A stretch of 64,000 nt of DNA from Orenia metallireducens (GTDB lineage Bacteria > Bacillota > Halanaerobiia > Halobacteroidales > Halobacteroidaceae): positions 1 to 64,000 of the forward strand of contig NZ_LWDV01000007.1 in assembly GCF_001693735.1 (NCBI RefSeq). The letters are read 5' to 3'. The notes beneath the pieces were generated by a model that made no database searches, was not told the DNA's origin, and was given only the letters and a program-made list of their open reading frames with translations. Shown here in pieces: positions 3,685 to 24,720 of this stretch (positions within the stretch are counted from its first letter, which is position 1; every line of letters starts with the position of its first letter). Position numbers and translations under genes: made by a program.

Positions 3685-3990
3685 AAACTCTTTCATCCTT
3701 AATTAAGGACGAAAGAGTTTATCTTCCGCGGTACCACCTTGCTTAATCTATTAAATACTTAATAGCCATTATTTTTCAGTTTATAACTAAAATAGATTCT
3801 CTTAATTTCTGATAACGGCAGAAGACCGACATAGCCTATTTTATAGTAAATCAATAACTATAGTTCAACTAGTAACTCCAGAGTGAACTTCACTTAGTCT
3901 GATTTTAAGGATACTCTCAGTCTATGATATCCTCTCCCTGATAAAATAAGTTCTAAGCTACTCTCTCCTTCACAGTCTTTAATCATATTA
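3685..3990 (-). ncRNA. T-box leader of pheST (tRNA-Phe sensing)
   Basis: The minus strand carries the T-box core AAGGTGGTACCGCGG (3726-3740), which pairs with the uncharged tRNA acceptor end. It is followed by an intrinsic terminator hairpin (about 3685-3720, AAACTCTTTCGTCC paired with its complement) ending in T-rich DNA. In the upstream stem I region the sequence GAAG-TTC-ACTCTGGAG puts a TTC (Phe) codon at 3885-3887 in the place expected for the specifier. T-box RNAs read through when tRNA is uncharged, so low tRNA-Phe charging should raise pheST expression. Confidence 0.92.
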
Positions 3991-10434: not shown

Positions 10435-10446
10435 ATATACTTAACT

Positions 10447-10656
10447 GGTCTCCCTTTCACGCTGACGAGGTTAGCTGTCGGATTCGGACTAAAAGGATAG
10501 CCCTACTAATAATCAAGACTAAGTTTAAGATTAAGTATAAGTAAATTGTGAACTACTCATTATTTTACTTGAACTCAGCTCTAGACTTAAACTTACTATT
10601 AGATTCACCCCAAAAAGTGGTTCCCCCGCTCCTATTAGGATTAAGCGTTTGCTATT
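10447..10656 (-). ncRNA. c-di-AMP riboswitch (ydaO/yuaA class) upstream of ktrB2
   Basis: The minus strand carries the conserved ydaO-class blocks in order. First comes GCTTAATCCTAATAGGAGCG, then GGGGGAACCACTTTTTGGGG leading into TGAATC. After a variable arm comes CCGAATCCGACAGCTAACCT, then CGTCAGCG and a run of purines. This class binds c-di-AMP as an OFF switch and commonly precedes potassium transporters. A terminator follows at 10405-10434. The variable arm between the core blocks is long here (about 100 nt, from 10490 to 10590). Confidence 0.95.
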
Positions 10657-10670
10657 TAATTATTTTGTTC

Positions 10671-14280: not shown

Positions 14281-15756
14281 CTATTCTGTAGCTAAATACT
14301 TAGCATCCTTAACTATCTTGGCAACAGCAAAGAAGATTACTAAAAACTCCAGTCTTCCTAAGAACATTCCCACTGTTTGAGTCCATAAAATCCCTGCTGG
14401 AGCATCAGGGCTGGTAATCCCAATTGATAGTCCAACAGTACCTAAAGAAGAAGCAAATTCAAACATCGATTCTGCCAAACCATATCCATAAGCTAAGTAA
14501 ATTAAAACTCCAATAAAGTATGTAACCATATAAAGATAAATATAATTTGCAGTTTCACGAATATATTCTGCTTTAATGTATAACTTTTGTTCTCCTCTCC
14601 AGATATAATTCTCTACTACAGAATTTGGAGGTAAGAAATATCCCTTTAACTCCCACCAGACCGACTTAATCATTAGATAAATCCTATATAGCTTAATACC
14701 ACCTGCTGTAGAACCAGTTCCACCACCAATCCACATCAATAAAACCATCGCTAAAACACCAAATTGATTCCAATTACTGAAAGTATCTAAAGAGAATCCT
14801 GTAGTTGAAATAGCAGATACTACTTCAAAAAATCCCCGTCTGACTGTAGCAGGCAAACTTGTATATAAGCCATTTAAGGAAAAATAACTGACAATTGGAG
14901 TAAAGATAGCGATGATGAATAATAATAATCTAATCTCACCATTTTTGAAAAAAACCTTAAACTTCCCCTTTAATAAGGCAAAGTGGGTAGCAAAATTAAT
15001 CGTTCCTAAGATCATCAATAACCAAGTTACCATCTCTATCGGAAGACTATTCCAATGACCTATACTGTCAACCTTAGTTGAGAACCCACCTGTCGATAAT
15101 GCAGGAATAGCATGATTGATCGCATCAAAGACTCCCATTCCAGCTATCACATATAAAATAGTCCCTCCAATAATATATCCAAGGTAGATATACATAATAG
15201 CCTTAGTTGACTTCTTAACATGGGGTAATAATTGGTCACTTCTACCCTCTGCATTATATAATCCAAAGCCATAAGGATGCAAAACAGAAGATAACATTAC
15301 TACTATTAATCCTACCCCTCCAAAGAACTGCATAATACTTCTCCACATCAAAAAGACATGAGAAGCCTTAGTCACATCAACTACCGATAATCCTGTCGTT
15401 GTCCAACCACTAGTAGCCTCAAAGACGGCTTGGGTAAAGTTCAACTCCCCTGTTATCATAAAAGGCATAGCGGAAGCTATAATAGCTATAATCCAAGAGA
15501 TTAAAACTATAATCCCACCTTCCTTTAAGGAAAGGGTGACTTCATCTTTGACAGGTGTTAATTTCCACAGTAAAAGTCCAACCCCAAAAAAGATAGCAGC
15601 TGGAATTAAAAATGCCTTTATATAAACTATTTCTTTGGGGTAAAAAGGTAAAACCAACAGTGGTAGTAATAAAAATCCACCAATTGCCATCGTTAGGATT
15701 CCAATATATTTTGTTATTAACTTATACCTTTCTCTGATAATACTTGCATATCTCAT
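14281..15756 (-). CDS. trkH: TrkH-family K+ uptake membrane subunit
   Basis: Potassium-translocating subunit of a Trk system, 491 residues, with four M1-P-M2 repeats plus two extra N-terminal helices. Filter loops read SGWTTTGLSVV, ALSTGGFSTK, AISTTGFSL and LGTVGLSIG. The GTGSTAGGIKLYR gate loop is conserved. The ATG has GGAGG upstream and the gene follows trkA2 by 17 bases. It is the last gene of the operon that starts with the histidine kinase and lies under the c-di-AMP riboswitch. It pairs with two RCK proteins encoded just upstream. Confidence 0.94.
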   Translation of the reverse strand: MRYASIIRERYKLITKYIGILTMAIGGFLLLPLLVLPFYPKEIVYIKAFLIPAAIFFGVGLLLWKLTPVKDEVTLSLKEGGIIVLISWIIAIIASAMPFMITGELNFTQAVFEATSGWTTTGLSVVDVTKASHVFLMWRSIMQFFGGVGLIVVMLSSVLHPYGFGLYNAEGRSDQLLPHVKKSTKAIMYIYLGYIIGGTILYVIAGMGVFDAINHAIPALSTGGFSTKVDSIGHWNSLPIEMVTWLLMILGTINFATHFALLKGKFKVFFKNGEIRLLLFIIAIFTPIVSYFSLNGLYTSLPATVRRGFFEVVSAISTTGFSLDTFSNWNQFGVLAMVLLMWIGGGTGSTAGGIKLYRIYLMIKSVWWELKGYFLPPNSVVENYIWRGEQKLYIKAEYIRETANYIYLYMVTYFIGVLIYLAYGYGLAESMFEFASSLGTVGLSIGITSPDAPAGILWTQTVGMFLGRLEFLVIFFAVAKIVKDAKYLATE

Positions 15757-15773
15757 TTCTATTCCTCCGCTTC

Positions 15774-16433
15774 TTACTCACCAGATAATACAGCAAAAGC
15801 CTCTCCTTGATTCTCTGGTAGAGTAATAATTAATACCTTATCTCCCTCTAATAGCTGAGTATCACCTTTAGGAATAACGACCTCTTCCCCTCTAATAATA
15901 CAACCAAAAACTATATCCCGAGGAAGATTAATCTCCTTTAAAGTCTTGCCTAAAACCGGCGAACTCTTTTGTAAAATAACTTGGGAGATATTAATTCTCC
16001 CCTCTTCAATCGACAATAAATTATTGACATCAGCCACTTCTACTCTCTGCTCAATCAATAAAGAAATTAGCTTTGTTGTATTAAAGATAGTCTCTACCCC
16101 TAATTCTTTAAATATCTTCTCATTATCTGGATTATTGACCACAGAGAAGGTCTTAGGTACACCAAATTCTCTTTGAGCTAATTGGCAAATGAATAAATTA
16201 TCTGGATCATTTCCCGTCAAGGATAAGATAGCATCTGCCTTGCCAGCTTCTGCTTCCCTTAAAGCATCAGGTTTAGAACCATCACCATTAATCACCAAAC
16301 AATTAAGCTCCCGAGCTAAAAGCTGACAATACTCTTCATCTTTATTCACTATAGAGACCTGATATCCCTTAGCCAAGAAATTCTTAGCTAAGTAATAAAT
16401 TACCTTTCCTCCACCAACCATTATAATTCTCAT
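15774..16433 (-). CDS. trkA: TrkA-family RCK protein (two-domain)
   Basis: Cytosolic TrkA-type regulator, 219 residues. The N-terminal RCK_N domain begins RIIMVGGGKVIYYLAKNF and has DGSKPDALREA. A C-terminal RCK_C domain follows (about 135-219). The nucleotide-binding glycine motif is GGGKVI rather than the canonical GxGxxG, so dinucleotide binding may be altered. It probably forms the gating ring of TrkH, perhaps as a hetero-assembly with the single-domain RCK protein upstream. The start is ATG with GGGAGAG. Confidence 0.9.
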   Translation of the reverse strand: MRIIMVGGGKVIYYLAKNFLAKGYQVSIVNKDEEYCQLLARELNCLVINGDGSKPDALREAEAGKADAILSLTGNDPDNLFICQLAQREFGVPKTFSVVNNPDNEKIFKELGVETIFNTTKLISLLIEQRVEVADVNNLLSIEEGRINISQVILQKSSPVLGKTLKEINLPRDIVFGCIIRGEEVVIPKGDTQLLEGDKVLIITLPENQGEAFAVLSGE

Positions 16434-16448
16434 ACTAATCTCTCCCTA

Positions 16449-16847
16449 TTATCCAATAATCTCTCTTGTAAATTTATCTACCAATAAATTGGTAGGACTC
16501 ATTGTAATCACATCTAAATTGCGATAAATAACTTCCTTCTCTGGATCTAAGAGTCTAACCATCACCTTTGGTATTTGATATAATTCACTGGCTATTTGAG
16601 CAATCATGGCATTAACATTGTCATTGTCAGTAGTGATTACCACTACATCGGCTTTGTCAAATTTGGCCGACTTCAATGTCTCTATTTCAGTAGCATCTCC
16701 ATTGATTGTAAAGCCTGTAAATTCTGCTGATAATCTATCAAAAGATCCAAACTTCTTATCTATCACCACCACATCTTCTCCTGCTTTAGATAGTTGATTG
16801 GCTAGATAAGAGCCACTCCTACCACAACCTATAACTACAATATACAT
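16449..16847 (-). CDS. single-domain RCK_N (TrkA-N) protein
   Basis: Only 132 residues: one RCK_N Rossmann domain with a canonical GCGRSG motif at residues 8-13, VVVIDKK after beta-2 and GDATEIETLK. No RCK_C domain follows; the next gene begins 16 bases later and is the two-domain RCK. It may supply the active dinucleotide-binding site to a mixed RCK ring, since its partner's glycine loop is degenerate. That is inference. The ATG has AAGGTGA upstream. Confidence 0.88.
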   Translation of the reverse strand: MYIVVIGCGRSGSYLANQLSKAGEDVVVIDKKFGSFDRLSAEFTGFTINGDATEIETLKSAKFDKADVVVITTDNDNVNAMIAQIASELYQIPKVMVRLLDPEKEVIYRNLDVITMSPTNLLVDKFTREIIG

Positions 16848-16849
16848 AA

Positions 16850-17545
16850 TTACTCACCTTCCTTATCAATTTCCTCACCTAGATTAATACCTTCCTTCTG
16901 ATAATCAAATTGAGTACTTCGCTCTAAATTCTCTTGAGCTGGACGATAAGCTGGGTCTAGAGACAAAGCAGCTCTATAGTTCTTTTGAGCCTCTGACAGA
17001 TTATCCTGCAACTCCATAATTACCCCCATCAAATTAAAGGCTTCTGGTTTAGTAGCATCTAAGCCAACTGCGTTCTGCAAGTAATTATAGCCTTTAGTAA
17101 AATCACGCTTGCTAATAGCAGATTTAGCATAACTTAGATAATCTTCATAGCTATTCAACTCCTCATCAGATACTGCTAAGCTCTGCCTATCTAGCACTTC
17201 TTTAACTATCTCTCGAATCTCATTAGGAGCAAAAGGCTTTCTTAAATAATCTACTGCCCCCATCTTCATGGTCTCTACTGCTGTCTCTATCGTTCCAAAA
17301 CCTGTAATCATAACAATATTAACATTATTATCTAACTCTTTGAGTTTCTTTAGAACTTCAATTCCATCAATTCCTGGTAGCTTCATATCAAGTAATACAA
17401 GGTCAAAATTATCATCTTTGAACTTTTCTAATCCATCTTCACCGTTGACACCTGTAACCACTTCATAATCTTGATTCAAGCATTGCTTTAAGGTAATTCT
17501 AATATTCTTCTCATCATCAATAATCAAAATCTTCTTTTTATCCAT
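16850..17545 (-). CDS. response regulator with C-terminal TPR domain
   Basis: 231 residues. The receiver domain (about 1-125) has the acidic pair DDE near residue 10, the phospho-acceptor Asp53 in LVLLDMKLPGIDG, and the conserved Lys in RKPFAP. The C-terminal half is not DNA-binding: it has TPR-like helices (about 130-215), for example FTKGYNYLQNAVGLDATKPEAF split as two helices, and a repeat around NYRAALSLDPAYRPAQENL. It probably acts by protein-protein contacts. It lies 20 bases after the lone receiver gene and two bases before the RCK gene. Confidence 0.9.
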   Translation of the reverse strand: MDKKKILIIDDEKNIRITLKQCLNQDYEVVTGVNGEDGLEKFKDDNFDLVLLDMKLPGIDGIEVLKKLKELDNNVNIVMITGFGTIETAVETMKMGAVDYLRKPFAPNEIREIVKEVLDRQSLAVSDEELNSYEDYLSYAKSAISKRDFTKGYNYLQNAVGLDATKPEAFNLMGVIMELQDNLSEAQKNYRAALSLDPAYRPAQENLERSTQFDYQKEGINLGEEIDKEGE

Positions 17546-17565
17546 TATAAATCTCCCCTTTTTAT

Positions 17566-17925
17566 TTATAGATAGGATGCAATCTTCTCTAATAACTTAT
17601 TAGGCTCAACTGGCTTGATAATATAATCATCAGCCCCCAAATCATAAGCCTTCTTAATATCCTCTTCCTCTGCTTTAGCACTCATCATTAGTATAGGTAT
17701 CTGAGTTGTCGCCTCATCCTTCTTCAAGGTCTCACAGACCAAAAAACCATTCATCTTAGGAATCTTAATATCCAATAAGATTAAGTCTGGTTCCCATTCA
17801 AAGGCTGTATCTACAGCATCTACCCCATCAGATACAACCTTGACCTCATATCCAGCATTGCTTAAACAGATCTTTAATACAGTTACAATATTCTTACTAT
17901 CTTCAACAACTAATATTTTATTCAA
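17566..17925 (-). CDS. single-domain response regulator (CheY-like)
   Basis: Stand-alone receiver domain of about 119 residues. Features are VVEDSKN with the acidic pocket, the phospho-acceptor Asp in LILLDIKIPKMNGF (Asp52 from the TTG), MMSAKAEEED, and the conserved Lys in IIKPVEP. There is no output domain. The frame can open at GTG 17934, directly abutting the kinase stop, but TTG 17925 has AGGTGG at usable distance. It is probably a phospho-acceptor or shuttle for the kinase encoded immediately upstream. Confidence 0.9.
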   Translation of the reverse strand: MNKILVVEDSKNIVTVLKICLSNAGYEVKVVSDGVDAVDTAFEWEPDLILLDIKIPKMNGFLVCETLKKDEATTQIPILMMSAKAEEEDIKKAYDLGADDYIIKPVEPNKLLEKIASYL

Positions 17926-17934
17926 TCTGACCAC

Positions 17935-19779
17935 CTACTTTGGTAATTTAAGAGTAAAGGTAAATCTAGTACCCTCTCCAACTTCACTTTCAACCCAAAT
18001 CCTACCACCATGGGCTTCAATCATCTCTTTAGAGATAGCTAAACCTAAGCCAGAACCAGTATCCTTATCCTTATCTCCTCCTACCCTCATAAATTTATCA
18101 AAGATTTTATGCTGATACTCTTTAGGGATCCCCTCTCCTGTATCGGTAACAGAGATATGAACTTTATGACCTTTCTTCTCAGCTGACAGCTTGATTTGAT
18201 CACCTGACTGGGTATAACGGAGGGCATTGCCTATCAGGTTAGTAATAACCCAAGTAATTTTATTTAAATCAGCATGCACCGCTAAATCATCTACATCATC
18301 TGCTACCAACTCTACCCCTTTATTCTTAGCTTGATCAACAAAAGGTTTGATTGATGCCTTAAATATCTTCTCTACTTGTATATTATCAAATTCTAAGTTT
18401 ATCTCTCCTGACTCTATCTTTGATAAGTCTAATAAATCATCTACTAAATTATTTAAACGCTCACAATCTTCCTTAGCTACTTCTAATAACTCCTGCTGAT
18501 TATCGTTAACCTCACCAATATTGCCTTCTAAGAGCATGCTGATACCCATATTCATAGAGGTTAATGGTGTTCTAAACTCATGGGAAACCATAGAAACAAA
18601 TTCCGACTTCATCTCATCCACCTCTTTAAGGTGAGTAATATCATCAAGTAAGGTTACTACTAGCTTAGTATCTCCACTTTTATCCTTTACTGGGGTTGTG
18701 CTAACTCTAAAATAAAGCTCTTTATTCTTTTGTTCAAACTTAATCACCCTACTATCTTTACCAGATTGCTCTGAGCCTGAATTTAAGGTCTCAGCAATTA
18801 AATTAAAGATTCTCTCCTCTTTAATCGTCTCTAAAAAGTGATTACCTAATACATTCTCTTCCTCTAGCTTAAATAACTTTTCAGCTCTGGGATTAATCAA
18901 TAGTATCTTATTCTCATCATCAGTCACCAATAAAGGACTGGATATGCTCTTAACTATACCTTCTGATTTGTTCTTCTCAGCAATTAATTTAGATACATTC
19001 ATCTCTTCATACTCTCTTAATCTTTGGGTCATACTATTAAACTCTGCTGCTAACTCTCCAATTTCATCTTTAGTATCAACTTCAATTAACTGTTCTAAAT
19101 CTCCATCAGCTACCTCTTTGACTATTTCTGTCAATCTTTTAGTCGGTCTAATAATCAGATTAGAGATATAAATTCCAAGTACAATAGCTAAAATTACTGC
19201 AAGTACAGAAAATACTATTGTAGAATAAATTGCTTGGCTAGCATTATTATTAGCCTTCTGTTGTGACTCTTTCATATGTTCTTGATTAACCATTAGCAAT
19301 TTTCTAGTTTCATTCTTTACCTTCTCAAATTGAGGCATAGATTCCTCAAGATAATAATCCTGAACCTTCTGAATTTCATTCTGATTAGCCAATTGGCGTA
19401 AATTCCAAAACTTATCTAGATAAGCTTGATAACCCTCGTTAATATTGTTGATAATCTTCTCTTCTTCAGGAATCGTAATATTATCCTCAGCCCTTGACAG
19501 ATACTTCATAAACTGCATTTGGTTCTCTTGGAAGATATTTAAGGCTTTATCTTTTTGCCCAAAGCTAAAGATTAACTCTGCACTATCTTGCCGTTCTAAA
19601 GACTCTACCATCTTCTCAGCAGCAATAACACTTCGATAATTTTCCACCATAATATCATGTATCGCTTCATTTAAGGTCATAAAATTACTGATAGACCAGA
19701 GAGCAACACCGATTGTAATCAAGATAATAACTATGTATCCTAATAAGATTTTTATCTTTAAGCTTAAATTCTTAATCAT
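17935..19779 (-). CDS. membrane sensor histidine kinase (HAMP-PAS-HisKA-HATPase)
   Basis: 614 residues. TM1 is at about 9-30, and a largely helical extracytoplasmic sensor of the four-helix-bundle type at 31-180. TM2 is at about 185-208, HAMP at 205-258, PAS at about 270-385. The HisKA phospho-acceptor is His400 in SMVSHEFRTPLTS. HATPase_c spans about 500-612, with N box NLIGNALRYT and G boxes DTGEGIP and GSGLGLAI. It is the first gene after the c-di-AMP riboswitch and heads the operon with two receivers and Trk genes, so it may sense osmotic or ionic state. The stimulus is not evident from sequence. Confidence 0.93.
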   Translation of the reverse strand: MIKNLSLKIKILLGYIVIILITIGVALWSISNFMTLNEAIHDIMVENYRSVIAAEKMVESLERQDSAELIFSFGQKDKALNIFQENQMQFMKYLSRAEDNITIPEEEKIINNINEGYQAYLDKFWNLRQLANQNEIQKVQDYYLEESMPQFEKVKNETRKLLMVNQEHMKESQQKANNNASQAIYSTIVFSVLAVILAIVLGIYISNLIIRPTKRLTEIVKEVADGDLEQLIEVDTKDEIGELAAEFNSMTQRLREYEEMNVSKLIAEKNKSEGIVKSISSPLLVTDDENKILLINPRAEKLFKLEEENVLGNHFLETIKEERIFNLIAETLNSGSEQSGKDSRVIKFEQKNKELYFRVSTTPVKDKSGDTKLVVTLLDDITHLKEVDEMKSEFVSMVSHEFRTPLTSMNMGISMLLEGNIGEVNDNQQELLEVAKEDCERLNNLVDDLLDLSKIESGEINLEFDNIQVEKIFKASIKPFVDQAKNKGVELVADDVDDLAVHADLNKITWVITNLIGNALRYTQSGDQIKLSAEKKGHKVHISVTDTGEGIPKEYQHKIFDKFMRVGGDKDKDTGSGLGLAISKEMIEAHGGRIWVESEVGEGTRFTFTLKLPK

Positions 19780-19832
19780 TACATCACCTCACAAGGCTAT
19801 TATTGACTAAATCAAATTAATTTATTTTATAA

Positions 19833-19867
19833 TTAAAAAAGGCTATAGCAGGTAGCTATAGCCTTTT
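19833..19867 (-). terminator. riboswitch terminator before the histidine kinase
   Basis: AAAAGGCTATAGC and its complement flank a short loop (19837-19867) and end in six Ts on the minus strand. It lies between the aptamer and the kinase start, so it is the likely expression platform of the riboswitch. Confidence 0.88.
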
Positions 19868-19967
19868 AACGTCTATAATATATATCTGATAATGATAATA
19901 TAAATAAATTATGCCATTTACATCAAAATAAAGCACAAAATATAATATTTCATTTTCAGATATACTA

Positions 19968-20124
19968 CGCCCTACCCCTTTTCAACGCTTACGAGGTTAG
20001 CTGTCGGACTCAGGTTAAAGGTAACCTTAGAAAATATAGCAGTACTATGTTTTCACTCGCCCCAAAAAAGTGGGTCCCCCGCTTCTATCTTAATATAGAA
20101 CTCAGCGATTAAAGTAGCTATTCA
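19968..20124 (-). ncRNA. c-di-AMP riboswitch (ydaO/yuaA class) upstream of the kinase-trk operon
   Basis: Minus-strand conserved blocks appear in ydaO order: AATCGCTGAG, AGAAGCGGGGGACCCACTTT followed by TTTGGGGCGAGTGA, then CTGAGTCCGACAGCTAACCT and CGTAAGCGTTGAAAAGG. The aptamer is compact compared with the ktrB2 copy. A terminator follows at 19833-19867. It should switch off the whole kinase-receiver-trkA-trkA-trkH operon when c-di-AMP is high. Confidence 0.94.
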
Positions 20125-20138
20125 ATTTTGTTAGTGTT

Positions 20139-20168
20139 ATTATAACCATTAATATGGCTAAATGTCAA
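20139..20168 (-). promoter_or_regulatory. promoter of the riboswitch/kinase/trk transcript
   Basis: TTGACA (20163-20168) and TATAAT (20139-20144) are separated by 18 bases on the minus strand, directly ahead of the riboswitch. Confidence 0.75.
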
Positions 20169-20224: not shown

Positions 20225-20562
20225 ATATTGCGATACTTTTGAATTTGCAATTAAAAGTTTTTTAACCCGAAGAAAATTAATGTTTAAACGAAGCAAGCAT
20301 TTTAAAAAATAATATACTTAATATAAGCTTTGAATTAGAACTCTTAAATTTCTTAATCTCAATGGATATTAATTGCGTAGTGAGTAGGCTCTGCCACGAA
20401 GAGTTTTGGTTCTGGGCTGCCCTTGCCACAAAGGGGTTGCTTTATAACCCCAAAGGTAAAACTCGTAGGTTTGGTTTCTTTTGGGGCAATGCCAAAAGAA
20501 ACTCGCTCTTAGGCAAAACCTAAGATGGGCTTACTTCTCCAAAAGTAAGAGTATAGCAATAT
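20225..20562. repeat. MITE-like element, long type (copy E)
   Basis: A 338-bp non-coding unit bounded by ATATTGCGATACTTTT on the left and the degenerate complement AAGAGTATAGCAATAT on the right. Its interior (GAAGAAAATTAATGTTTAAA near 20270, then GCGTAGTGAGTAGGCTCTGC near 20375) is shared with copy D (52106-52535). It lies between the rplT terminator and the kinase operon promoter. Confidence 0.75.
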
Positions 20563-20627
20563 ATCAATAAAAAGAAACTAACCATATCAAAAACAACTAT
20601 TATATCTAACAAATATCAAAGATATAA

Positions 20628-24429: not shown

Positions 24430-24720
24430 AACAAAAAATCCCCATCTCTAAATTTAGAGACGTAGGATTCGTGGTTCCACTCTAATTAAATTTATATCAT
24501 CCCATGACAAAGTAGAGATAAGATAAATTTCACTCATTTCAAGATAACGGATTTTACCGGAGCACCCTAATACTTATTGTAAGGTTCAGGTGTCAACTCA
24601 GAGGTGGTTTTCGGCTAAATATTCTTAGGAGACTTCCAGCTGATAATCTCCATTCTCTGTTAAGAAAGTCTTTAGCTTACTCGTCCTCTTCATAGTCTTT
24701 ATAATTATTATCTTAATAAA
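24430..24720 (-). ncRNA. T-box leader of thrS (tRNA-Thr sensing)
   Basis: The T-box core AGAGTGGAACCACGA is at about 24470-24484 on the minus strand. A terminator follows (AATCC...GTCTCTAAA paired with TTTAGAGA...GGATT, then six Ts, 24432-24470). In the upstream stem I, AAA-ACC-ACCTCTGAG aligns with the pheS leader's specifier region and puts a Thr codon (ACC) at 24606-24608. Uncharged tRNA-Thr should allow read-through into thrS. Confidence 0.9.

Follow-up and report, generated by a model that had tools for sequence, protein, structure and literature searches.

Two-component control of K+ uptake rests largely on KdpDE acting on kdp, and for the Trk, Ktr and Kup importers the main control known is that by nucleotides and by cyclic di-AMP (c-di-AMP); ydaO riboswitches also occur at ktrAB and kimA of B. 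subtilis. KdpD controls KdpFABC via transcription as well as via phosphorylation of KdpB (PMC11018627). High c-di-AMP turns ydaO switches off, and at kdp a riboswitch and an intact KdpDE are mutually exclusive (PMC6488665). Here, we describe an operon in which a riboswitch of this class stands over two-component proteins and a Trk K+ importer together. It lies on the minus strand of a 64,000-nucleotide (nt) stretch of Orenia metallireducens DNA (positions 1 to 64,000 of contig NZ_LWDV01000007.1, hereafter the window; the source assembly comprises 3.47 Mb in 12 contigs) and encodes a membrane histidine kinase, a lone receiver, a receiver fused to a TPR tail (the receiver-TPR protein), two TrkA subunits and TrkH. 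Because the kinase and the receiver-TPR protein, as a pair, stay beside K+ importers across phyla, these two-component proteins appear to work with K+ uptake. We give a little better than an even chance to the reading that they are a K+ or osmotic sensor pair exerting post-translational control on K+ importers, with a riboswitch on top in the Bacillota. The elements of the operon, with protein lengths in amino acids (aa), are the following.

20168-20139, minus strand: sigma-A promoter, TTGACA-18 nt-TATAAT, 12/12 consensus matches
20117-19971, minus strand: ydaO/c-di-AMP riboswitch aptamer (RF00379, 92.6 bits)
19867-19837, minus strand: intrinsic terminator of the riboswitch, a 13-pair hairpin plus T run between aptamer and kinase gene
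19779-17935, minus strand: membrane histidine kinase, 614 aa (Pfam: 4HB_MCP-HAMP-PAS-HisKA-HATPase_c)
17934-17566, minus strand: lone receiver (CheY-like), 122 aa (Pfam PF00072 only)
17545-16850, minus strand: receiver-TPR protein, 231 aa (Pfam PF00072 plus weak TPR)
16847-16449, minus strand: TrkA1, RCK_N-only subunit, TM1088A-like (Pfam PF02254)
16433-15774, minus strand: TrkA2, RCK_N plus RCK_C subunit, TM1088B-like (Pfam PF02254, PF02080)
15756-14281, minus strand: TrkH K+ channel/transporter subunit, 491 aa (Pfam PF02386; TIGR00933 narrowly below cut-off)
about 14209-14180, minus strand: 11-bp A/T-rich inverted repeat plus T run just before mgtE, read in the sequence, the probable operon end

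A first-pass annotation of the window, made from its letters alone, had proposed a promoter, a ydaO aptamer, a terminator, six closely packed genes and a terminator at the end, and scans, Pfam and inspection of the sequence bear out all of these. The promoter tops the region, the next-best minus-strand site in the promoter scan reaching 9/12, and the intergenic gaps within the six-gene operon measure 0-20 nt. The terminal inverted repeat was not scored by the terminator scanner, because the scanner is G+C-based and the repeat is G+C-poor. Separate promoters before trkA or trkH, which the annotation itself had named as fatal to its idea, were rejected, since the scan found no strong minus-strand site within the operon genes and a promoter would not fit into intergenic gaps that never exceed 20 nt. 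As read from the DNA, the arrangement argues for riboswitch, kinase, receivers and Trk genes forming one transcription unit. Promoter-like sites number 35 against 25.9 +/- 4.7 by chance, and weak ones inside genes might be taken to favour a chance neighbourhood of independently transcribed genes without any functional link between kinase and Trk; this explanation is refuted by conservation, i.e. by the cross-phylum persistence, the gene overlaps in many relatives and the joint presence and absence described below, and is left with next to no probability. Between rplT and the operon promoter lies a G+C-richer repeat-like stretch (20390-20580), which is also matched in an O. metallireducens-like locus (L046).

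The order kinase-receiver-receiver/TPR-TrkA1-TrkA2-TrkH is found in 31 genomes from six families of the Halanaerobiia, i.e. in the window and 30 further loci, a few of which are cut by contig ends, and since the same six genes keep the same order despite differing flanking genes, their grouping is not a matter of chance. In almost every one of these loci, neighbouring genes overlap or nearly touch, which points to one transcript with translational coupling. The sensor domain of the kinase (residues 1-190) is present in 30 of 59 genomes, with one copy per genome and solely at this operon. A receiver-TPR query matched full-length in about 30 genomes of the class, a TrkA1 query matched 12 of the 13 genomes of the order, and the 20 genomes checked have one true receiver-TPR protein each (scoring 273 bits or more, other receivers staying at or below 169). 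The nearest named match of the receiver-TPR protein, at 96% identity, is from Orenia metallireducens.

Absence is joint as well: class genomes without the kinase/receiver-TPR pair are also without an intact close TrkH, as in G007, a genome of the same family, which has neither the kinase sensor nor a close TrkH. In G052, riboswitch and terminator run straight into a TrkA2 gene missing its first part, and trkH is frameshifted; in G025, the riboswitch is followed by only the second half of trkH. These two independent loci (L137 8148-10401 and L146 8735-9879) look like remnants left by deletion of the signalling genes. Two genomes of a further family (f8) keep the receiver-TPR protein under the riboswitch without the kinase, in one of them after a KtrA gene and in both before an amino-acid-permease/Usp protein. 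In riboswitch operons with the receiver-TPR protein but without the kinase, a small protein of 106-111 aa comes first (L076 5935-6270, L077 6727-7047); it has one likely membrane segment, a coiled coil and no Pfam match.

Beyond the class, loci were collected by scanning named genomes with the receiver-TPR alignment and reading the gene tables of the matches; some of them belong to metagenome bins that may be misnamed, so that the phylum count is approximate. The set kinase-receiver/TPR-TrkA1-TrkA2-TrkH occurs in Desulfobacterota, Planctomycetota, Chloroflexota, Cyanobacteria, Acidobacteriota/Aminicenantes, Spirochaetota, Omnitrophota and Hydrogenedentota, and several other Bacillota have the same five genes plus the lone receiver. 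The latter, tried as a core part of the module, was rejected as such, because it is absent from most relatives outside the Bacillota. Within phylum samples, the pair was present in at least 10 of 297 genomes of Desulfobacterota, at least 2 of 292 of Cyanobacteria and at least 1 of 251 of Chloroflexota, all lower bounds, with about ten candidates scored per genome. The partner is mostly a two-subunit TrkA ring with TrkH; in other loci it is, by Pfam and tblastn, Kdp, Kup or Ktr:

L160: KdpB-KdpC
L193: KdpB-KdpC plus a KtrB gene
L200: KdpB-KdpC-KdpD plus a receiver gene
L170: a KdpD N-terminal protein
L195, L248 and L247: Kup
L245: KtrB-KtrA

In the class, 30 of 32 family loci have a K+ importer (TrkH/KtrB, Kdp or Kup) no more than 5 kb away, as do 47 of 61 outside it, compared with 2 of 29 loci of unrelated receivers from the same scan; several of the 14 outside misses fall at contig ends or adjoin KdpD. 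The flag for kinase adjacency (less than 300 nt) reads 0 in Halanaerobiia because the lone receiver intervenes, which is no real absence. On the protein tree, linkage to Kdp requires four separate changes, and these four Kdp linkages are independent repetitions of the importer association.

This variety of partners bears directly on mechanism. The first-pass annotation had suggested that the membrane sensor modulates K+ uptake through protein contacts, with the RCK proteins as candidate partners of the TPR receiver, and one specific form of this idea is that the receiver-TPR protein binds the two-subunit TrkA ring, probably TrkA1, and thereby gates TrkH. A Trk partner is indeed nearly always of the RCK_N plus RCK_N/C form (42 loci outside the class), and the kinase-less receiver-TPR protein of L076 comes after a KtrA gene. 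The same pair, however, adjoins Kdp and Kup, both without RCK subunits, so RCK contact is not the sole mechanism and fails as a general one; moreover, two-subunit rings are known without a described kinase, as for TM1088, where PMC4380455 mentions none. We regard ring-specific binding as improbable. The ring itself is readily recognized: separate RCK_N and RCK_N-RCK_C genes adjoin trkH, the best PDB matches of TrkA1 and TrkA2 are 3l4b chain A and 3l4b chain C (1.5e-52 for the latter), and the two subunits, by these predicted relationships, are a TM1088A/TM1088B type two-subunit gating ring. The RCK_C domain of TrkA2 is weakly similar to that of CpaA (5f29, E 3.7e-4), a similarity that says nothing on c-di-AMP binding.

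In 40 diverse kinases from all groups, the phospho-acceptor H400 is invariant, and the extracytoplasmic sensor is nearly as strictly conserved as the catalytic core, with near-invariant residues N47, Y48, S50, A53, M57, E62, R63, Q64, D65, S66, F83, F90, A97, N100, T102 and E106; the conserved sensor motif reads ENYRSI-AA--M---ERQDSA-L ... RA-DNIT--GE. A structure model of the kinase (predicted local distance difference test, pLDDT, 81; predicted template-modelling score, pTM, 0.39) has long sensor helices, as expected of a four-helix bundle. In the receiver-TPR protein, D10, D11, D53, T81 and K103 are invariant among the 33 closest proteins and all but T81 among 54 diverse ones, in which the TPR tail is conserved too; its model (pLDDT 91.6, pTM 0.60) has confident domains in uncertain relative placement. 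The catalytic residues of the lone receiver are conserved in 31 sequences. By alignment, kinase and receivers keep the two-component residues, i.e. the acceptor His and the Asp, Thr/Ser and Lys. Pfam found no DNA-binding domain in the lone receiver or the receiver-TPR protein, and no NCBIfam model above cut-off names the kinase, the receivers or the TrkA subunits. Membership of the kinase in the KdpD family was rejected, as Pfam found neither PF02702 nor a DNA-binding response regulator among the window proteins. In a PDB search for the fold of the receiver-TPR protein, the best hits covered the receiver (REC) half only. In Desulfobacterota (L175 2124-3647), the upstream sigma-54-type kinase has a sensor resembling that of the family (KNYKSIRAA ... 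RENITEPGE), which would suit a single stimulus feeding two outputs.

The aptamer scores 92.6 bits (E 1.8e-20) over the full RF00379 model (1-134), for which the gathering score is 38, thus passing the curated threshold in sequence and structure, and it has an expression platform in the terminator downstream, a hairpin and T run also following the aptamer in most relatives. c-di-AMP should be made by this organism, as its genome has two diadenylate cyclase domains. By all testable features, the predicted riboswitch is an ordinary ydaO member. An antiterminator pairing of the aptamer tail (GGTAG) with the terminator loop (CTACC) was suggestive by eye in several families and was dropped, since 18 of 24 leaders gave p>0.1 against shuffles. 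The first-pass annotation had proposed looking for kinase genes downstream of RF00379 hits, and in the class the aptamer heads the operon at all 28 loci with upstream DNA present, the other 3 ending at a contig edge. It stands directly before the kinase in 16 loci and before a KtrB-KtrA pair leading into the kinase in 12 (KtrA and kinase stand 2.4 kb apart in L060, which is of this type). The aptamer and the kinase of G011, one of the 16, fall on separate contigs; by alignment, the riboswitch terminator is followed immediately by a group II intron, and an intron of this kind, with a reverse transcriptase, was seen between terminator and kinase in a same-genus genome (L047 9362-10365, L138 1-572), the contigs breaking inside it. 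Outside the Halanaerobiia, where the search covered eleven loci, the aptamer was found at three Clostridia/Tissierellia loci (Maledivibacter, Sporosalibacterium and one Clostridiales bin).

Other leaders were noted along the way. A second ydaO aptamer in the window (10445-10657, minus strand; 100.5 bits, interrupted by some 85 inserted nt) leads into KtrB-KtrA-KtrB-KtrA (10420-5938), and a third, elsewhere in the same genome (contig C10:661945-662137; L078 4884-7137), precedes an F-type ATP synthase operon with an AtpI-like gene and, as Pfam confirms, subunits a and c. Genes of this kind also follow an aptamer in L132, L134, L136, L139, L143 and L144, and ATP synthase under a c-di-AMP riboswitch may merit separate study in halophilic anaerobes. 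Ordinary T-box leaders stand upstream of thrS and pheST (24453-24702 and 3702-3982, minus strand).

An important question is whether the pair acts on transcription. The devices serving transcription at these operons seem to vary by lineage: Bacillota have the riboswitch, Desulfobacterota encode a kinase and a sigma-54 receiver immediately upstream of the operon (L175; the receiver in L244), and L200, a single Clostridium bin, has KdpD beside a second receiver. This makes a further transcriptional role, that of the pair, less likely and a post-translational one more likely. Since the operon occurs behind other regulators outside the Bacillota, the riboswitch is not integral to the circuit, and its linkage to the kinase is one regional form, that of the Bacillota, of a cross-phylum module. 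The nested osmotic circuit of the first-pass annotation, in which c-di-AMP sets the level of a membrane sensor that modulates K+ uptake, therefore stands in part: the riboswitch-headed unit with a kinase and output-less receivers is class-wide, but the pair is found in many phyla outside the Bacillota.

We propose that the membrane kinase would read an extracytoplasmic signal, presumably external K+ or osmolarity, and that the phosphorylated receiver-TPR protein would change the activity of K+ importers in one direction or the other without acting on transcription. Its target may be the importer or a factor common to importers, and we infer that it contacts partner proteins. The lone receiver of the Bacillota versions would probably be a second phosphate acceptor, i.e. 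a sink or a relay. Here, high c-di-AMP in a K+-replete cell would end the transcript before the kinase gene, switching importer and regulator off together. Several points weigh against this proposal. The partner importers have unrelated folds, so that one site for direct binding to all of them is difficult to envisage and a shared component may be the target; some members, among them L163, L197, L202 and L241, are without a neighbouring importer (L197 and L202 being divergent, and a KtrA gene lying 4 kb from the L163 member); and co-location could reflect co-expression only. In addition, the loci share ancestry, the counts are not independent and hence no p-value is given for the importer association.

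Much of this could also be accommodated by a K+ or osmotic sensor whose output lies elsewhere, e.g. in cross-talk to a DNA-binding regulator, in osmolyte genes or in a proteolysis adaptor, the importer linkage then reflecting shared conditions only. Neither receiver has an output domain with a known target, the partners belong to unrelated importer families, and Desulfobacterota encode a second kinase and a sigma-54 receiver just upstream, all of which would suit such a sensor. Yet the pair stands beside K+ importers across many phyla and was re-linked to Kdp several times, no other constant partner was seen at these loci, and within the class its absence goes with that of an intact close TrkH. 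We consider an output elsewhere unlikely, though it deserves serious weight. Post-translational control of the importers remains our preferred reading; that it amounts to an undescribed, widespread two-component system, modular across Trk, Ktr, Kdp and Kup and subordinate to c-di-AMP in Bacillota, we hold to be an evenly balanced proposition.

The first-pass annotation had thought a riboswitch over a sensor kinase and two output-poor receivers together with Trk to be new, and we found no report of it in the open-access literature. Nor did we find a description of the kinase/receiver-TPR pair there; the gene lists of early ydaO surveys (Block 2010, Nelson 2013), outside that search, may contain the kinase. 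If our reading is true, a kinase/receiver pair without transcription output, found alongside all these importers, would add a general layer so far missing from K+ control, which the riboswitch version would also couple to c-di-AMP, and the conserved sensor motif makes the stimulus testable.

Among described systems, the published TM1088 locus (PMC4380455) provides with TM1088A/B the closest solved relatives of TrkA1 and TrkA2, and both TrkA sets adjoin TrkH; unlike the Orenia operon, it is described without a kinase or receiver. Compared with other receivers that lack a DNA-binding output, such as CheY, Spo0F, RssB and PorX, the REC half of the receiver-TPR protein is ordinary and closest to the NtrC1/Spo0F type, but it is fused to a short conserved TPR tail, an architecture for which the PDB fold search found no solved protein. 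The kdpFABC riboswitch of B. thuringiensis (PMC6488665) shares aptamer family, terminator platform and a K+ importer as target with the Orenia operon; in contrast to that case, the Orenia riboswitch unit takes in a complete kinase together with two receivers. In function, KdpD comes closest: it, too, is a sensor kinase whose gene accompanies those of a K+ importer, and transporter activity is controlled there besides synthesis. The Orenia pair, however, has no KdpD domain, Usp domain or DNA-binding receiver, and pairs of its type accompany several importer families and even co-occur with KdpD itself in one locus (L200).

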